In this document: one piece after another, positions 47,395 to 56,151 of the stretch | How the letters are laid out: each line of letters begins with the position of its first letter | Numbering within the stretch: the first letter of the stretch is position 1 | Source of the DNA: an uncultured SAR116 cluster alpha proteobacterium | GTDB taxonomy: Bacteria > Pseudomonadota > Alphaproteobacteria > Puniceispirillales > Marisalimonadaceae | Direction: 5' to 3' | Assembly (NCBI GenBank): GCA_902517815.1 | Contig: CABYED010000011.1 | Span: 1 to 56,239 of the forward strand | Length of the DNA: 56,239 nucleotides | The notes under the pieces: generated by a model | Databases searched by the model: none | Told to the model about the DNA's origin: nothing | The model's input: only the letters and a program-made list of their open reading frames with translations | Made by a program: the position numbers and the translations under genes

Positions 47395-48293
47395 TTTATT
47401 ATAATTGTTTTTCAAATAAGAAAGTTATAAATATTTATAATATAATACCAATAATTTTTGTTATACTTTGGTCTTCAGCATTTATTACTAGCAAAATAAT
47501 AGTTGATAATGCCACACCTTTTCTTTCGCTTTCAATAAGATTTGGGATAGTTGCCTTCTTATTTTTCCTGTTTTTCATTTTTTTTTCAAAAGACAAATAT
47601 ATTTCTTTTAAAGCTTTCAAAAATGCATCCATTAGCGGGTTATTATTTCATGGCTTATATTTAGGTGGAGTTTTTTTTGCTTTATCTAGAGGTATATCAG
47701 CTACTCTTATAGCGTTAATAGTATCATTACAACCTATTTTAACATCATTTCTAGCAAAAATTTATTTGAATGAAACTTTAACTAAATTTCAGTGGCTTGG
47801 AGTTATTTTAGGATTTAGTGGTGCATTGATAATTATAATTTCTGATCTAATTGATGGCCTAACTATAGTTGCCTTTTTTTCTGGAATAGTTGGACTGGTT
47901 TCTTCTTCACTAGCTATTATCTGGCAGAAAAAAATAGGATCTGATTTGTCTTTATCTGGAAATAGTTTTTTGCAAGCATTAAGTGCTGCAATTTTTCATC
48001 TTTTATTAGCACTTTGCTTTGAAAAATTTTTTATAAATTTTTCAAATGATTTTATTTTAGCTATGTCATGGCAAATATTTGCTGTTTCACTTGGTGCATT
48101 TTTAATTTTGATGTGGTTACTAACGAAGAATAAAGCAAATGAAACATCTACTTTATTTTTTTTAGTACCTCCTATATCTGCTTTACTTGCTTTTTTAATA
48201 TTAGAAGAAACATTTACTTCTTTTGACTTCTTGGGTTTGTTTCTTTCTTGTCTTGGAGTGTTTATGGTTTCAAAAATTCATATAAAGATATAA
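47394..48293 (+). CDS. EamA/DMT-family transporter with no canonical start codon
   Basis: The frame is open from 47382 to 48293 and encodes a typical DMT (EamA) permease with about ten helices: LWSSAFITSKIIVDNATPF, LYLGGVFFALSRGISATLIAL, QPILTSFLAKIYLNETLT in the first half and a second EamA repeat ending in LEETFTSFDFLGLFLSCLGV. There is no ATG, GTG or TTG in frame before the TTG at 47766, which would remove five helices. ATT at 47394 or 47433 or ATA at 47427 could initiate; I drew the feature from 47394, which gives the normal length of about 299. Loss of the start by mutation (a decaying gene) or a sequence error are alternatives. Substrate unknown; family members export metabolites or amino acids. 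Confidence 0.6.
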   Translation: MYYNCFSNKKVINIYNIIPIIFVILWSSAFITSKIIVDNATPFLSLSIRFGIVAFLFFLFFIFFSKDKYISFKAFKNASISGLLFHGLYLGGVFFALSRGISATLIALIVSLQPILTSFLAKIYLNETLTKFQWLGVILGFSGALIIIISDLIDGLTIVAFFSGIVGLVSSSLAIIWQKKIGSDLSLSGNSFLQALSAAIFHLLLALCFEKFFINFSNDFILAMSWQIFAVSLGAFLILMWLLTKNKANETSTLFFLVPPISALLAFLILEETFTSFDFLGLFLSCLGVFMVSKIHIKI

Positions 48294-48331
48294 AGATTTT
48301 ATGTTATTGTTTTTTTTTAAATCATTGTTAG

Positions 48332-48337
48332 TATAAT
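48332..48337 (+). promoter_or_regulatory. Candidate -10 element for the riboswitch transcript
   Basis: TATAAT at 48332-48337 would start transcription near 48344, a few bases before the first P1 stem of the glycine riboswitch at 48351. No good -35 element lies 16-18 bp upstream (the sequence there is T-rich). Confidence 0.38.
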
Positions 48338-48350
48338 TAAATCATATCCT

Positions 48351-48511
48351 TTTTGTGTGAGAGAGTTATTTATAACCGCCGAAGGAGCAACCACCCCGGA
48401 AACTCTCAGGCACCCGAAACACAAAAAGTTGATAATCTGGAGAGTGATGATTTTATCATCCACCGAAGGGGTAAGCCAGTTTTGGTCAATCTTTCAGGTT
48501 CCGTGACAGAT
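48351..48511 (+). promoter_or_regulatory. Tandem glycine riboswitch (two aptamers)
   Basis: Two adjacent glycine aptamers are visible. Aptamer 1 (48351-48426): P1 pairs 48351-48358 with 48419-48426 (eight pairs); GAGAGTT (48361-48367) pairs with AACTCTC (48401-48407); the CCGAAGGAGCAA core and the CTCAGGCA conserved segment lie between. Aptamer 2 (48435-48511): P1 pairs ATCTG (48435-48439) with CAGAT (48507-48511), GATGA (446-450) pairs with TCATC (456-460), and ACCGAAGGGG and CTTTCAGGTTCC are the conserved core pieces. The two are joined by a short linker as in other cooperative glycine riboswitches. An open frame across this element is not a gene. It precedes a FAD amino acid dehydrogenase rather than gcvT. 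Confidence 0.93.
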
Positions 48512-48548
48512 GGGGTAGTATTTGATTTGCAAAAATTTTGTCACGGAG
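48501..48548 (+). promoter_or_regulatory. Riboswitch expression platform that can hide the Shine-Dalgarno
   Basis: CCGTGACAGA (48501-48510) can pair with TTTTGTCACGG (48536-48546; ten pairs with one G-U), and the latter runs into the GGAG ribosome binding site (48545-48548) of the gene that starts at 48555. CAGA of the first strand is also the 3' side of aptamer 2 P1. The two structures exclude each other, so glycine binding would free the ribosome binding site (an ON switch). No U-tract follows, so control at translation rather than termination is likely. Confidence 0.65.
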
Positions 48549-48554
48549 TTTATT

Positions 48555-49787
48555 ATGAAAAATATAGCAATCATTGGAGCAGGTATAACCGGTATAACCA
48601 CTGCTTACCAACTCTTAGAAAGAGGTTATACTGTATCTGTTTTTGATAAAAACCGTTATGCAGCGATGGAAACAAGTTTCGCAAATGGTGGTCAATTATC
48701 TGCTTGCAATGCCGAAGTTTGGAATAGTTGGTCTACAATAGGAAAAGGTATTCAATGGATGTTTAAAAAAGATGCACCATTACTATTCAGTCCTAAGCTA
48801 AACTTTCATAAAATTAGTTGGATAATGGAATTTATAAGCAATATTCCAAACCACAAGAAAAATACAATTTTAACCGCTAAAATGGCTGTTAAAAGTAGAG
48901 ACGAATTCAAAAGGATTCTAAAAAAAGAAAACATTGAACTAGATCTTGAAGAGAAAGGTATCATGCATTTATGTGAGTGTGATGCTTCATTAGAACATGG
49001 TAGAGAGGTTAGCAAATGGCTTTTAGAAGCTGGTTTGGATAGAAGAGAAATTTCTATAGATGAGATGTTATCTATTGAACCTACCTTAAATCTTAAGAAC
49101 TTTATTGGTGGATTTTTTACAAAAAGTGATATGTCCGGGGATATTCATAAATTTACAAAATTGCTTGCTGATGCTTGTGAAAGAAAAGGTGTAAAATTTT
49201 TTTATGAAACAGAAATTGTTAAAGTCAATCATGACAAAAAACAACCAATACTCTCCTTTAAGCAATCAAATGACATTCAAAAACAAAATTATGACGGAAT
49301 AGTAGTTTGTGCTGGTGTTAACAGTAAATTCATAGCAAATAACTTAAGTGATAGAATCAATATATATCCTGTAAAGGGGTATTCAATTACAATATTACTT
49401 GACGATAAAGAGAGCATAAAAAATGCTCCTTATGTATCTTTACTAGATGACAAGGCTAAAATTGTTTCAAGTAGATTGGGAAAAAATAGATTTAGAGTTG
49501 CAGGCACTGCTGAGTTTAATGGTTATAATAAAGACATAAGAGCTGATAGAATTAATCCTCTAATTAAATGGTGTAACGATCTTTTTCCTACAGTGTCTAC
49601 TGAACATGCTATACCTTGGACTGGTTTAAGACCTATGACACCAAGCATGGTGCCAAAGGTTGGCAGTGGAAATTTACCTGGTGTATTTTATAATACTGGC
49701 CATGGGCACCTTGGTTGGACGCTTAGCGCATTTACGTCTCAACAAATTTCAGATCATATAATAAGAAAAGATAATATCTTAGACTAA
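48555..49787 (+). CDS. DadA-like FAD amino acid dehydrogenase under glycine riboswitch control
   Basis: A 410-residue flavoprotein of the DadA/glycine-D-amino-acid oxidase superfamily: GAGITGITTAYQLLERGY at the N-terminus, SFANGGQLSAC, the VVCAGV strand and the TGHGHLGWTLS C-terminal FAD loop, all typical of D-amino acid dehydrogenase small subunits. DadA oxidatively deaminates D-amino acids (mainly D-alanine) and passes electrons to quinone. The start ATG at 48555 lies 6 nt after GGAG; the upstream frame to 48522 is riboswitch sequence. Control by a glycine riboswitch suggests that glycine or a closely related amino acid is the substrate or product of interest, but this is inference. It ends 2 nt from gyrB. 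Confidence 0.87.
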   Translation: MKNIAIIGAGITGITTAYQLLERGYTVSVFDKNRYAAMETSFANGGQLSACNAEVWNSWSTIGKGIQWMFKKDAPLLFSPKLNFHKISWIMEFISNIPNHKKNTILTAKMAVKSRDEFKRILKKENIELDLEEKGIMHLCECDASLEHGREVSKWLLEAGLDRREISIDEMLSIEPTLNLKNFIGGFFTKSDMSGDIHKFTKLLADACERKGVKFFYETEIVKVNHDKKQPILSFKQSNDIQKQNYDGIVVCAGVNSKFIANNLSDRINIYPVKGYSITILLDDKESIKNAPYVSLLDDKAKIVSSRLGKNRFRVAGTAEFNGYNKDIRADRINPLIKWCNDLFPTVSTEHAIPWTGLRPMTPSMVPKVGSGNLPGVFYNTGHGHLGWTLSAFTSQQISDHIIRKDNILD

Positions 49788-49789
49788 TT

Positions 49790-52225
<2,436 letters not shown>

Positions 52226-53449
52226 TTAAATATCTCCATATTTAAAGTGATAATTACCATCAAAATTTTCCTTGATCTCTTGAAGATTTATTTTATCAAT
52301 AAAACTTGGATATTCCGAAAAAGCATCCTTACTAGTGCTTGTAAACCAAGATTGAGCATTATGTCTAGATACCTCTAAAAATAAAGCTCTCCTATGCTTC
52401 TTGTCTAAATGCTCAATAATGTCATCTAATAATAAGATTGGGGCCATATTGAATTTATTATTTAGCAATCTAGCATGAGATAAGATAATTGATATTAATA
52501 TAAGTTTTTGTTCTCCAGTAGAGGAGGTATCTAATTTTTTATTATCAATCCTATTAAAAATTTCTATTAGAGAGTTATTAGGTCCAGAAACAGATAATTC
52601 GTAATCAGATCGTGATTTTTTTAATTCTGATTTGACGAAATCTTCAACCTCTACAGCAGGGTTTTCCTTAAGTAATTTTTCTATCTTCCCATTAATAATA
52701 ATACCAACAGAAGGAAAATGCTCAATTAAGTGATTATTTTTTAACTCAAAATTATATAAATTTTCAAGTTCTTCTAATAAGTCTAATCTTCTAGCTATAA
52801 TCGAAATTGATAGTTCAGAAATTTGGGATTCTATAGTGTCCAACCATGTCTTATCATTATTAGGTTGCATCAAAATTTTATTTCTTTGTCTACTTAATTT
52901 ATCGTATTTGTATACTCTATTTAAATGTAGGCTATCTAATGACATGGTGAGTCTGTCAATGAAACGTCTTTTTTCACTCATACTTGATAAGATCAAAACA
53001 CAAAGCTGAGGCGTAATCCATGATATATTCAAAATTTCTCCTAAAGAGCTTAATGAAGTATAATCTGAATTAACCTTGGCAATTCTTGATTTATTAGATC
53101 CAGTATTTTTTAAGCCTGTGCCGATATTAAACTTTCCATTTGGGCTTAAAAAATCAACGTTTACGCCCCAGGTTTTATCGGCGTAATCATGAATTTTATC
53201 TTGATTCAAAAAATTTTCTATATTTGCTTTTCTTAGGCCTTTGCCTTGATTTAGAAGAGAAATGGCTTCTAAGATATTAGTTTTACCAGAACCATTTCCA
53301 CCATATATTAAAACAGAAGAGTTTTGTAAATTAAGATTTAAATTTCTGTGGTTTCTAAAATTTTTCAAACTTACTTTTTTAATATAAAAACTTTTAGCAT
53401 CTTTTATATTAAAAATATTTTCTTTGAAACTTAAAATATTATTGTTCAT
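52226..53449 (-). CDS. recF: DNA replication and repair protein RecF
   Basis: RecF is an SMC-like ATPase that loads RecA at gaps. The 407-residue protein has Walker A YGGNGSGKTN (about 49-58), the ABC-type signature STGEQK and Walker B PILLLDDIIEHLD. The N-terminus extends about 20 residues before the usual L-x-L-x-N-F-R-N start; the ATG at 53449 is preceded by AGGGGA 4 nt upstream, so the extension looks real. dnaN lies 37 nt upstream. Confidence 0.93.
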   Translation of the reverse strand: MNNNILSFKENIFNIKDAKSFYIKKVSLKNFRNHRNLNLNLQNSSVLIYGGNGSGKTNILEAISLLNQGKGLRKANIENFLNQDKIHDYADKTWGVNVDFLSPNGKFNIGTGLKNTGSNKSRIAKVNSDYTSLSSLGEILNISWITPQLCVLILSSMSEKRRFIDRLTMSLDSLHLNRVYKYDKLSRQRNKILMQPNNDKTWLDTIESQISELSISIIARRLDLLEELENLYNFELKNNHLIEHFPSVGIIINGKIEKLLKENPAVEVEDFVKSELKKSRSDYELSVSGPNNSLIEIFNRIDNKKLDTSSTGEQKLILISIILSHARLLNNKFNMAPILLLDDIIEHLDKKHRRALFLEVSRHNAQSWFTSTSKDAFSEYPSFIDKINLQEIKENFDGNYHFKYGDI

Positions 53450-53486
53450 CTTTCCCCTGGATTTCTGATTTAAATCAGACAGAAAG

Positions 53487-54596
53487 TCAAACTCTCATGG
53501 GCATTAAAACAAAAATCACACCTTCTTGATCAGGATCTGTTATTAATGCCGGTGAGGCAGAGTCTGACAATAAAATTTCAATTTCTTCACCTTGTATTTG
53601 AGATGCTATATCCAAAAGGTATTTTGAATTAAATCCAATTTCTAAAATATCGTAGTTATAATCTATTTCTAAATCTTCTGATGCTATTCCAAGATCGTGG
53701 CTGTTTACGTTCAAAGACAATAAATTATTGCTTAGGGAAAGTTTTACAGCTCTTGATTTTTCCATTGAAACTGTAGAAACTCTGTCAATTGCTTTTGAAA
53801 AATCTTGGTTTGAAACTACAAGTTTATTCAAATTTTCTCTAGGTATAACTCTTTGGTAATCTGGGAAAGAGCCATCAATCAATTTTGTTGTTAAAATTGA
53901 GTTTGGAAAAACAAACTGTGCCTTAGTGTTTGAAATAATAACTTTAATTTTGCCATCTGTTCCATCAGTTAATTTTCTAATCTCCCCTACAGCTTTTCTC
54001 GGTAAAATTATCCCAGGCATGTCTGAAGCTCCTTCAGGAAGAGGTATTTCTGCTTGGGCCAATCTGTGACCATCAGTTGCAACAGCTCTAAGTTTATTAT
54101 TATTTGAGTTAGGGACATGCAGAAAAATGCCATTTAAATAGTATCTTGTTTCCTCTAACGAAATTGCAAATTTTGTGTTATCTATCAAATTTGTAAGATC
54201 TATTGACTGGAGACTAAATTCATGATCTTTATCGATATTTGTCATAATTGGATAATCGTCGACAGGTAAGGTTGGGAGAATAAATTTAGAATTACCTGCG
54301 GAAATTTCTACATTCAATTCTTTAAGTTCAATTTTTACTTCGGATCCATCAGGTAGTTTTCTTACTATATCATATAATGTATGTGCAGATAACGTTACTT
54401 TTCCTTGACTTGAAACTATACAACTTGTTTCTTCTACAATATCCATATCCATGTCTGTAGCAGTAAATGAAACTTTTGATGAATTTGTTTCTATTAATAC
54501 ATTAGATAAAATGGGGATAGTATTTCTTCTTTCTACCACAGAGGATACGTGCCCAAGGGGTTTTAAAAGAGAGTTTCTATCTATAGTAAAATTCAT
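53487..54596 (-). CDS. dnaN: DNA polymerase III beta clamp
   Basis: DnaN is the ring-shaped sliding clamp. The 369-residue protein has three repeated clamp folds, beginning MNFTIDRNSLLKPLGHVSSVVERRNTIPIL (written here in part) and ending with SDSASPALI and VLMPMRV, which forms the peptide-binding pocket end. GAGG lies 8 nt before the ATG and a candidate promoter lies at 54641-54670. dnaA is 115 bp upstream, recF 37 nt downstream, same strand. Confidence 0.96.
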   Translation of the reverse strand: MNFTIDRNSLLKPLGHVSSVVERRNTIPILSNVLIETNSSKVSFTATDMDMDIVEETSCIVSSQGKVTLSAHTLYDIVRKLPDGSEVKIELKELNVEISAGNSKFILPTLPVDDYPIMTNIDKDHEFSLQSIDLTNLIDNTKFAISLEETRYYLNGIFLHVPNSNNNKLRAVATDGHRLAQAEIPLPEGASDMPGIILPRKAVGEIRKLTDGTDGKIKVIISNTKAQFVFPNSILTTKLIDGSFPDYQRVIPRENLNKLVVSNQDFSKAIDRVSTVSMEKSRAVKLSLSNNLLSLNVNSHDLGIASEDLEIDYNYDILEIGFNSKYLLDIASQIQGEEIEILLSDSASPALITDPDQEGVIFVLMPMRV

Positions 54597-54616
54597 AATC
54601 GAACCTCAATTACTTT

Positions 54617-54667
54617 ATGAAACAAGAAAACAACATTTCATTTATAACATGTTTAAAGTTGTTTCAT
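54617..54667. repeat. Inverted repeat around the dnaN promoter
   Basis: ATGAAACAA (54617-54625) and TTGTTTCAT (54659-54667) are perfect inverted copies, 33 bp apart. A second set, AAACAAC (54628-54634) with GTTGTTT (54658-54664), and the palindrome AACATGTT (54647-54654) lie inside. One copy covers the -35/spacer of the proposed dnaN promoter and the other lies just past the start site, an operator-like layout. It could equally form a hairpin in the leader. Confidence 0.5.
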
Positions 54668-54670
54668 CAA
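54641..54670 (-). promoter_or_regulatory. Candidate sigma-70 promoter of dnaN
   Basis: On the reverse strand TTGATG (54670-54665) and TATAAA (54646-54641) are separated by 18 bp, placing initiation near 54634 and a leader of about 38 nt before the dnaN ATG at 54596. An inverted repeat overlaps both ends of the element. Confidence 0.48.
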
Positions 54671-54711
54671 GCACTTACATTTAAGAAACTTATTAAATAA
54701 TAAAATGATAT

Positions 54712-56151
54712 TTATAGGTTAAAAATTGATTCTTTTAAATGATAAATATGAGTTTTTAATTTCTGATCACTTTCAAGCATTGATCGAATTTTTTTTACGG
54801 CATGTAAGACAGTCGTATGATCTTTACCACCAAAAGCTTTTCCAATTTCAGGATAAGAGTAACTTGTTAACCCCTTACAAAGATACATAGCTATCTGTCT
54901 AGGTCTAGCAATATTAATAGATCTTCTAGACGAAGTCATATCAGACAAAGAAAGATTATAATAAGATGAAACCTTTTTTTGAATACTATCTATTGAGATG
55001 GATTTTTCGCGGGCAGAAATTAAATCAGACAATAAGTTTGTGGAATTTTCTATATTTATTTTTGTACCAGTTAATTCATAATTTGCCCAAATACGATTCA
55101 ACGCACCTTCTAATTCTCTGATATTATTTACAATCTTATTAGCTATAAACTGAAGCACATCTATTGGTACGTTTAAGTTTAATACTTCAACTTTTTTTTT
55201 CAAAATTTCTAATCTCAATTCATAGTTGGGTGGTAGAAAATCTACGACAAGACCTCCTGATAATCTAGATTTGAGCCTTTCCTCGAGAGATAATAAATCT
55301 ATTGGAGATTTATTAGATGAAATTATTATCTGTTTTCCTTGGAAAATTAAATCATTAAACGTGTAAAAAAATTCTTCCTGAGTAGAACCTTTTCCACCTA
55401 TAAATTGAATATCATCAATCATTAAAATATCAATAGATCGAAACTGATCTTTAAATTTTATAGTCTCTTTTAATCTTATTGCTTTTATAAATTGATACAT
55501 AAACCTTTCAGCAGACATCATAGCAATTTTTAAATAAGGAAAGTTTACTTTTAACTCTATTGCTATTGCGTTTAGTAAATGTGTTTTCCCCATTCCTACA
55601 TCTCCATGAATGAATAATGGATTGTAAGCTAAAGATTTATTTTCACATATCCTTTTAGATGCTGCATATGGCATTCGATTTGATTCACCAACTACAAAAT
55701 TATCAAAGGTCAATTTAGAGTTTGTTTTCATTGACACACTATCGATAAACGACAAATCACTGTTGGTTATTTGTTGATTTATTTTGATTTTTTGAAAATT
55801 GTTTTTTATAGAGATATTTTCTTTTTGCTTAAGAGAAACGGTATGAAATTGAATTTTTTTTAAAGATTTGAAAAAATTAGACGCTTGAAAAAAAATAGTT
55901 TCATAGTATTGATTTTCTGCTCTATTAGAAATTATTTTAGAGTCTGATGAGAGATATAGTATTCCTTTTTCATATTTTTCAAGTCTAAGAGGTTTAATCC
56001 ATGCTTCCCAAAAAATTTCTTTTATATCCTTGGAGATTGAATCTTTAATATCTTCCCAATTTTTTTTCTGAATGAGAAATGTTTCTTTTGAAGAATTTCT
56101 TTTTTGGTTATTTTCACCCTCTAATTCAGAATTTATTTCAATTTCAGACAT
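54712..56151 (-). CDS. dnaA: Chromosomal replication initiator DnaA
   Basis: DnaA binds oriC boxes and opens the duplex. The 479-residue protein has an N-terminal domain (about 25-100, with IFWEAWIKPLRL), a variable linker (about 105-140), the AAA+ domain with Walker A GDVGMGKT (183-190), Walker B LMIDDIQFI and sensor 2 region, and the C-terminal DNA-binding domain with the signature GKDHTTVLHAVKKI. The linker is Asn/Lys-rich and short. It heads dnaA-dnaN-recF-gyrB. I see no convincing DnaA box (TTATNCACA) in the flanking spacers, so oriC may lie elsewhere or beyond the right edge. Confidence 0.97.
   Translation of the reverse strand: MSEIEINSELEGENNQKRNSSKETFLIQKKNWEDIKDSISKDIKEIFWEAWIKPLRLEKYEKGILYLSSDSKIISNRAENQYYETIFFQASNFFKSLKKIQFHTVSLKQKENISIKNNFQKIKINQQITNSDLSFIDSVSMKTNSKLTFDNFVVGESNRMPYAASKRICENKSLAYNPLFIHGDVGMGKTHLLNAIAIELKVNFPYLKIAMMSAERFMYQFIKAIRLKETIKFKDQFRSIDILMIDDIQFIGGKGSTQEEFFYTFNDLIFQGKQIIISSNKSPIDLLSLEERLKSRLSGGLVVDFLPPNYELRLEILKKKVEVLNLNVPIDVLQFIANKIVNNIRELEGALNRIWANYELTGTKINIENSTNLLSDLISAREKSISIDSIQKKVSSYYNLSLSDMTSSRRSINIARPRQIAMYLCKGLTSYSYPEIGKAFGGKDHTTVLHAVKKIRSMLESDQKLKTHIYHLKESIFNL

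Follow-up and report, generated by a model that had tools for sequence, protein, structure and literature searches.

A tandem glycine riboswitch before a PRK12409-type dehydrogenase gene in SAR116 bacteria: a predicted switch for glycine oxidation in a genus that has apparently lost glycine cleavage

Why does a glycine riboswitch stand before the gene of a FAD-dependent amino acid dehydrogenase, and what would glycine gain the cell there? The locus in question lies in a 56,239-nucleotide stretch of DNA from an uncultured SAR116 alphaproteobacterium (hereafter the window, G000:C11 in our genome set), and the protein that it encodes shares up to 95% identity with its counterparts in SAR116 single-cell assemblies. 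A reading of the window made from its letters, called here the sequence-only reading, had proposed two glycine aptamers in tandem. Covariance search placed both aptamers over the gathering score of Rfam family RF00504, the first as a full-length match to the model (Table 1). The window-wide scan at the gathering level gave aptamer 1 alone, and aptamer 2 came from the whole-genome search, in which these were the only two RF00504 matches of the 2.04-Mb draft genome (89% complete), both at the PRK12409 gene. Beside the switch, gyrB, recF, dnaN and dnaA follow in a row on the minus strand (49790-56151), as near a replication origin.

Table 1. Coordinates of the switch, its target gene and an additional RNA found at Comamonas loci. 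Positions are those of the window unless a locus is named.
Feature	Position	Strand	Remarks
Leader-linker helix, 5' strand	48341..48344	+	Pairs with 48430-48433
Glycine aptamer 1 (RF00504)	48346..48431	+	63 bits, cut-off 32; covariation
Glycine aptamer 2 (RF00504)	48427..48519	+	56.3 bits, cut-off 32; P2 covaries
Leader-linker helix, 3' strand	48430..48433	+	Pairs with 48341-48344
Sequestering stem, 5' arm	48500..48510	+	48507-48510 common with the 3' strand of aptamer 2 P1
Sequestering stem, 3' arm	48537..48547	+	Covers GGA of the Shine-Dalgarno sequence
Shine-Dalgarno GGAG	48545..48548	+	Read in the sequence; 6 bases 5' of the ATG at 48555
PRK12409-type FAD-dependent amino acid dehydrogenase, 410 aa	48555..49787	+	NF009074, PF01266 DAO
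nhaA-I RNA (RF03057)	L084 7094-7157; L086 5559-5622; L098 5581-5644; L100 5559-5622; L108 5511-5574		

The gene had been read as that of a DadA-type FAD dehydrogenase, which agreed with the profile searches. The protein scored 625.2 bits against NF009074 (PRK12409; cut-off 494) and 211.7 bits against PF01266 (DAO), and it stayed below the cut-offs of DadA itself (NF001933/PRK00711, 315.6 bits against 383) and of the glycine oxidase ThiO (TIGR02352, 128.4 bits against 250.8). Judged by profile, PRK12409 is nearer to DadA than to ThiO. When 38 PRK12409 sequences were compared with 24 other DadA-like sequences, the residues common to both included R359, H383, G384 and W388, and the family-specific invariant positions of PRK12409 included 52, 55, 322, 325, 329 and 385. 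From the alignment, R359 presumably corresponds to the carboxylate-binding arginine known from glycine oxidase. The folds closest to the AlphaFold model of the enzyme (mean pLDDT 82.2) were glycine oxidases, with heterotetrameric sarcosine oxidase next, and all these matches were at 11-19% identity. Since the sarcosine oxidases come close behind the glycine oxidases, this search with a predicted model leaves the substrate unsettled.

The association of switch and gene was widespread. An RF00504 match was found just upstream of PRK12409 on the same strand in 79 of 80 related loci. These 80 were the best among 288 that a search with peptides from the window's protein had yielded, and thus no random sample of the family. 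The switch preceded the gene in all 48 SAR116-type loci and in 31 of the 32 others of this set. The sole exception was a locus of Dankookia rubra (L101), with no aptamer in the 404 bases upstream. The loci with a switch span Alphaproteobacteria and Burkholderiales, with Comamonas, Phyllobacterium, Ancylobacter, Bosea, Brucella endophytica, Neomegalonema, Pseudooctadecabacter and an Acetobacteraceae MAG among those outside SAR116. A setting unique to SAR116 is ruled out by these switches at PRK12409 in other orders and in Burkholderiales. Most of the 80 loci showed one aptamer in gathering-level scans, and tandem copies were seen for some. A tree of 26 tandem switches, built to see if those at PRK12409 descend from a single origin, had three label changes, on long branches with weak support. 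The NF009074 cut-off was exceeded by all nine proteins of the set that were compared with this model, among them the window's; the others were assigned by their identity to the query (54% or more). In Comamonas, an nhaA-I RNA (RF03057) lies a few kilobases downstream of PRK12409 (Table 1).

Sampling by genome gave a similar but less uniform result. In 289 sampled Alphaproteobacteria, the NF009074 cut-off was exceeded in five genomes, namely the window's, G039, G237, G313 and G253, the last only with its neighbours in the frame. The switch preceded the gene in the first four, and no RF00504 match was found anywhere in the genomes of G253 and of G099, whose NF009074 match lies below the cut-off. 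Within the window's order, four loci had the switch (L116-L119) and one did not (L115). PRK12409 or a near relative stood without a demonstrated switch at L101, L115, L129 and L130, to which we add the fragment-less G005. In the window's genus, the switch was directly before PRK12409 in 36 of 37 genomes, with the gene running off the contig in G003 and some others; in the 37th, G005 (68% complete), neither switch nor PRK12409 was found.

The glycine cleavage system was searched for in the genus. Neither a long GDC-P match nor any GcvH match came up in its 37 genomes, that of the window among them, and none of 40 exceeded the cut-off of the gcvP model TIGR00461 in the genus search. The controls were positive in 10 (GDC-P), 13 (GcvH) and 10 (TIGR00461) of 14 well-known genomes. 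Short GDC-P matches of 20-29 bits occurred in five of the 37 genomes, again including the window's. The frames that contain these matches have 523-620 residues, and three of the five narrowly exceed the Pfam cut-off of 26; we judged that none is a P protein. Most of the 37 genomes are incomplete (52-100%), and the absence of the P and H proteins was consistent across them. From these searches, the genus has apparently lost the glycine cleavage system. A GcvT-like protein of the window's genome (L112, 1411-2514) matched DMSP demethylase best (379.7 bits, cut-off 410) and stayed below the cut-offs of the GcvT models (144.7-162.2 bits); it is a probable DMSP demethylase just under its family cut-off.

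The rest of the order showed where such a switch otherwise resides. Of its 24 other genomes, ten had GDC-P but lacked PRK12409 above the cut-off; the switch was located by the gcv genes in every one of the ten. The family search found GcvT directly after the switch at six loci (L003, L004, L005, L007, L024, L026), and the remaining four were judged from the positions of the switch, GcvH and GDC-P. PRK12409 was present in five of the 24 (G039, G046, G053, G059, G060), with the switch before the gene in four of the five. The last nine had neither GDC-P nor PRK12409, and none of the nine had the switch. One of these nine is only 61% complete; the other eight (G040, G043, G049, G052, G054, G055, G056 and G058; 92-99% complete) showed no long GDC-P match, no PRK12409 over its cut-off and no switch, with G052 keeping a GcvH despite its lack of a long GDC-P match. 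G039 (L119 = G039:C42; also G039:C7) has both the cleavage system and PRK12409, and its only switch is at PRK12409. Malate synthase G was found in the window's genome and, whether or not the cleavage system was present, in 23 of 23 of the order's better genomes. Its presence is thus non-discriminating and serves as permissive evidence only.

Outside the order, the relation between the two systems was looser. A long GDC-P match was found in 14 of 26 carriers and near-carriers of PRK12409 searched, five of the 26 being from the order, and GDC-P exceeded its cut-off in 204 of the 289 sampled Alphaproteobacteria. Thus, outside the order the absence of GDC-P is not clearly tied to PRK12409, and a general loss of GDC-P among PRK12409 carriers is ruled out by the 14 that keep it. 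RF00504 matches were found in 15 of 17 carrier or near-carrier genomes outside the order. The five of these 15 without GDC-P had one switch site each, by its position at PRK12409, and the ten with GDC-P had two or three sites each. Since the number of switch sites tracks the enzymes present, PRK12409 behaves like one of the genes of the glycine regulon.

These distributions bear on what the enzyme oxidises. The predicted glycine-induced oxidation of glycine or a related amino acid, as suggested by the sequence-only reading, is made more probable by the apparent absence of the cleavage system from the genus and by the near-constancy with which switch and enzyme family occur together. Taking regulation into account, glycine is the likeliest substrate and D-alanine or D-serine the main alternative, and the oxidation of glycine to glyoxylate is likely to be the function of the enzyme. 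The switch could also work as proposed while the real substrate is D-alanine, D-serine or some other small amino or imino acid and glycine is only the signal; glycine can replace D-alanine in cell-wall precursors. Such a substrate would fit the profile, which is closest to the DadA families, the NCBIfam name of NF009074 (D-amino acid dehydrogenase) and the catalytic-region residues in common with other DadA-like proteins. It would also fit a Comamonas locus (L084), in which ORF calling placed a gene resembling a D-serine/D-alanine/glycine permease 57 bases after PRK12409 (4323-5792; 526 bits, below the family cut-off of 732). This gene is a possible co-regulated uptake system, and five other downstream genes from other lineages showed no such permease relation. 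However, the switch was upstream in none of 24 other DadA-like loci (L131-L154, 294-336 bits), in sister families that do not have PRK12409 glycine cleavage is under the same switch, and the genus has no other recognisable glycine-cleaving P protein. A substrate other than glycine is accordingly an alternative that we take seriously and yet regard as unlikely.

How the switch might act on the gene was examined in an alignment of 44 leaders, consisting of the window and 43 of the 48 SAR116-type loci (L032-L077, L079, L080; L047, L055, L060, L062 and L063 were left out). A competing stem of ten pairs (48501-48510 with 48536-48546) had been described. The stem exists, but it is formed by 48500-48510 with 48537-48547 and has 11 pairs, one G-U among them. 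Its overlap with the 3' strand of aptamer 2 P1 (48507-48511) and its course into the GGAG of the gene were seen as described: positions 48507-48510 belong to both helices, so that the stem and P1 are mutually exclusive. The stem was paired in 91.9% of cells of the alignment, versus 38-47% when its arms were slid. A compensatory change among relatives had been named as a check, and one pair indeed changes from GC to AU in 11 of the 44 sequences, five others varying one-sidedly. The eleven AU sequences may trace to one or a few events, and the counts for the stem were not above those of shuffled alignments (two-sided pairs as high in 500 of 500 shuffles, pair types in 497 of 500).

In the unconstrained fold of lowest energy, both aptamer 1 and the sequestering stem are formed. 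Since the overall fold energy was unremarkable (z -1.34; matched or bettered by 20 of 200 shuffles), the case is built on covariance scores and comparison and not on stability. Opening 48544-48549 cost 9.9 kcal/mol with the 5' arm and 1.3 kcal/mol without it. In a cruder calculation, which uses a fixed window before the ATG, 45 of 49 SAR116-type leaders, that of the window among them, showed a difference of 2.6 kcal/mol or more, and the leaders that fell short of this value were L048, L068, L071 and L080. Outside SAR116, 16 of 31 leaders reached a difference of 2 kcal/mol, which indicates that the expression platform is not uniform across the family. In its anatomy, namely the overlap at 48507-48510 and the opening energies, the platform of the window is coupled to aptamer 2 P1.

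An element that is an OFF switch or a transcriptional one, in which glycine lowers expression or acts on termination, would agree with the reported repression by glycine switches before transporters (PMC6944388, in the text available). It would also agree with the ViennaRNA results, in which the forced two-aptamer fold was about 17 kcal/mol above the OFF fold, and the GGAG was still mostly paired in the constrained two-aptamer ensemble through another, weaker hairpin. Thus, an equilibrium switch is unexplained by secondary structure alone, and we infer that co-transcriptional folding, the ligand and tertiary contacts must be invoked for switching. However, no terminator-like site was found at the leader, and since the arm shared with P1 belongs to the stem that hides the Shine-Dalgarno sequence, ligand binding should free this sequence. 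The opening energies and the lack of a terminator-like site favour glycine-ON control of translation, and we consider an OFF or transcriptional element improbable. No sigma-70-like site was detected 5' of the aptamers when 48200-48600 was scanned; a crude -10 promoter pattern, which matched 27 of 47 leaders, was dropped as evidence.

The aptamers themselves carry marks of selection in the same alignment. Their cores were invariant or nearly so, their helices were paired in 98.0% of cells with two-sided changes in 12 of 43 pairs, and on each of five measures of covariation 0 or 1 of 500 shuffles was as high. P1 of aptamer 1, counted earlier as eight pairs, is present and extends up to 10 pairs (48349-48358 with 48419-48428). 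Aptamer 2 has a P1 of five pairs (48435-48439 with 48507-48511) and a covarying P2. Since its P1 never varies among the 44 leaders, covariation neither supports nor opposes this helix. The leader-linker helix was paired in 97.1% of cells; two-sided changes occur in two of its four pairs, giving variants from ATCA/TGAT to GTCA/TGAC and related forms. Its covariation score was higher than in all 500 shuffles, and its count of two-sided pairs was not (209 of 500 as high). With each aptamer over the RF00504 cut-off and a covarying structure, the element is by sequence a predicted glycine riboswitch, and the RNA is an ordinary member of this class. An identity with the glycine-GGAnGA family was rejected, as the aptamer pair reached 71 bits against RF03166, below the family cut-off of 110, in an E-value scan of 48300-48600. 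That weak match is what could be adduced for aptamers that are relics or respond to another ligand, their link to glycine metabolism being inherited context only, a view that we find very improbable given both RF00504 scores and given near-invariant cores and covarying helices that speak for continued selection.

Computation thus supports the aptamers, the alternative pairing, the target family and the absence of recognisable cleavage P and H proteins, and we think it rather probable that the tandem riboswitch turns on translation of a glycine-oxidising PRK12409 enzyme which replaces the apparently lost cleavage system. In the absence of glycine, the two arms of the stem would pair and hide the Shine-Dalgarno sequence. 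When glycine, the ligand that we infer from the class of the RNA, is bound, aptamer 2 would close its P1, and the stem would lose its inner arm and open. The ribosome could then bind, and the dehydrogenase would be translated at high glycine. The enzyme would most likely oxidise glycine to glyoxylate and ammonia. Like DadA, it would probably deliver the electrons to the respiratory chain, and the glyoxylate could be consumed by malate synthase. The enzyme would stand in for the cleavage system apparently lost from the genus; the presence of switch and enzyme in a common ocean group that seems to lack this system suggests that the enzyme took over the burning of excess glycine. On a broader proposal we come down only just in favour, namely that PRK12409 enzymes are riboswitch-controlled, glyoxylate-forming glycine dehydrogenases of Alpha- and Betaproteobacteria that have displaced the whole cleavage system in SAR116.

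If these proposals are true, the same kind of RNA switch commands a different chemistry, in which glycine yields glyoxylate and no one-carbon unit. SAR116 would obtain no methylene-THF from glycine, which would affect its one-carbon supply, and the mode of glycine disposal in an abundant ocean lineage without a recognisable cleavage system would be shown. The PRK12409 family, which to our knowledge is named but without a tested function, would receive one, and its annotation as D-amino acid dehydrogenase would be corrected.

The target appears to be new to the glycine riboswitch class. In the available text of the sources, the reported targets are gcvT, glcB, serC, transporters, glyA and sdaA (PMC2211319, PMC3766115, PMC12452182). 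A DadA-type target was unreported in the open literature searched, supplementary tables and most subscription papers lying outside its scope: none is named in the available text of PMC2211319, PMC5069720, PMC6944388, PMC3766115, PMC12452182 and PMC2258182, nor in that of PMC12478193, PMC3160333, PMC5666159, PMC4710047, PMC12827605 and PMC12593503. PMC3766115 describes, in the part available, twelve glycine-metabolism orthologues, and its supplementary list may include a PRK12409-type target. Since the literature scope was restricted, the novelty of the target is a limited claim; the apparent novelty lies in the enzyme family under control and in its connection with the loss of the cleavage system.

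Among known systems, the ThiO glycine oxidases (TIGR02352; 7cyx, 4ysh, 1ng3) provide the best solved structures for the enzyme, by sequence and by fold, although the identity over the fold is 18-19% and the protein lies under the family cut-off. DadA (NF001933/PRK00711) is of the same fold family and has conserved residues in common with the window's enzyme, which differs in lying under the NF001933 cut-off and in having a switch that the other DadA-like loci do not. The tandem RF00504 element before gcvT or the gcv operon resembles the present one in its two aptamers and linker in the same order, and at six loci of sister families in this order a switch of this kind immediately precedes GcvT. 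In contrast to that arrangement, the target in the window is a FAD dehydrogenase, and no GDC-P or GcvH was found in the genus. In SAR11, a glycine riboswitch precedes the malate synthase gene glcB (PMC2211319, PMC5069720, as far as their available text goes), and gcvT is reportedly also under a glycine switch (PMC5069720, likewise), whereas the only RF00504 site of the window's genome is at PRK12409. The likeness to SAR11 is that of abundant marine Alphaproteobacteria in which a glycine switch is placed outside the cleavage operon, possibly around glyoxylate.
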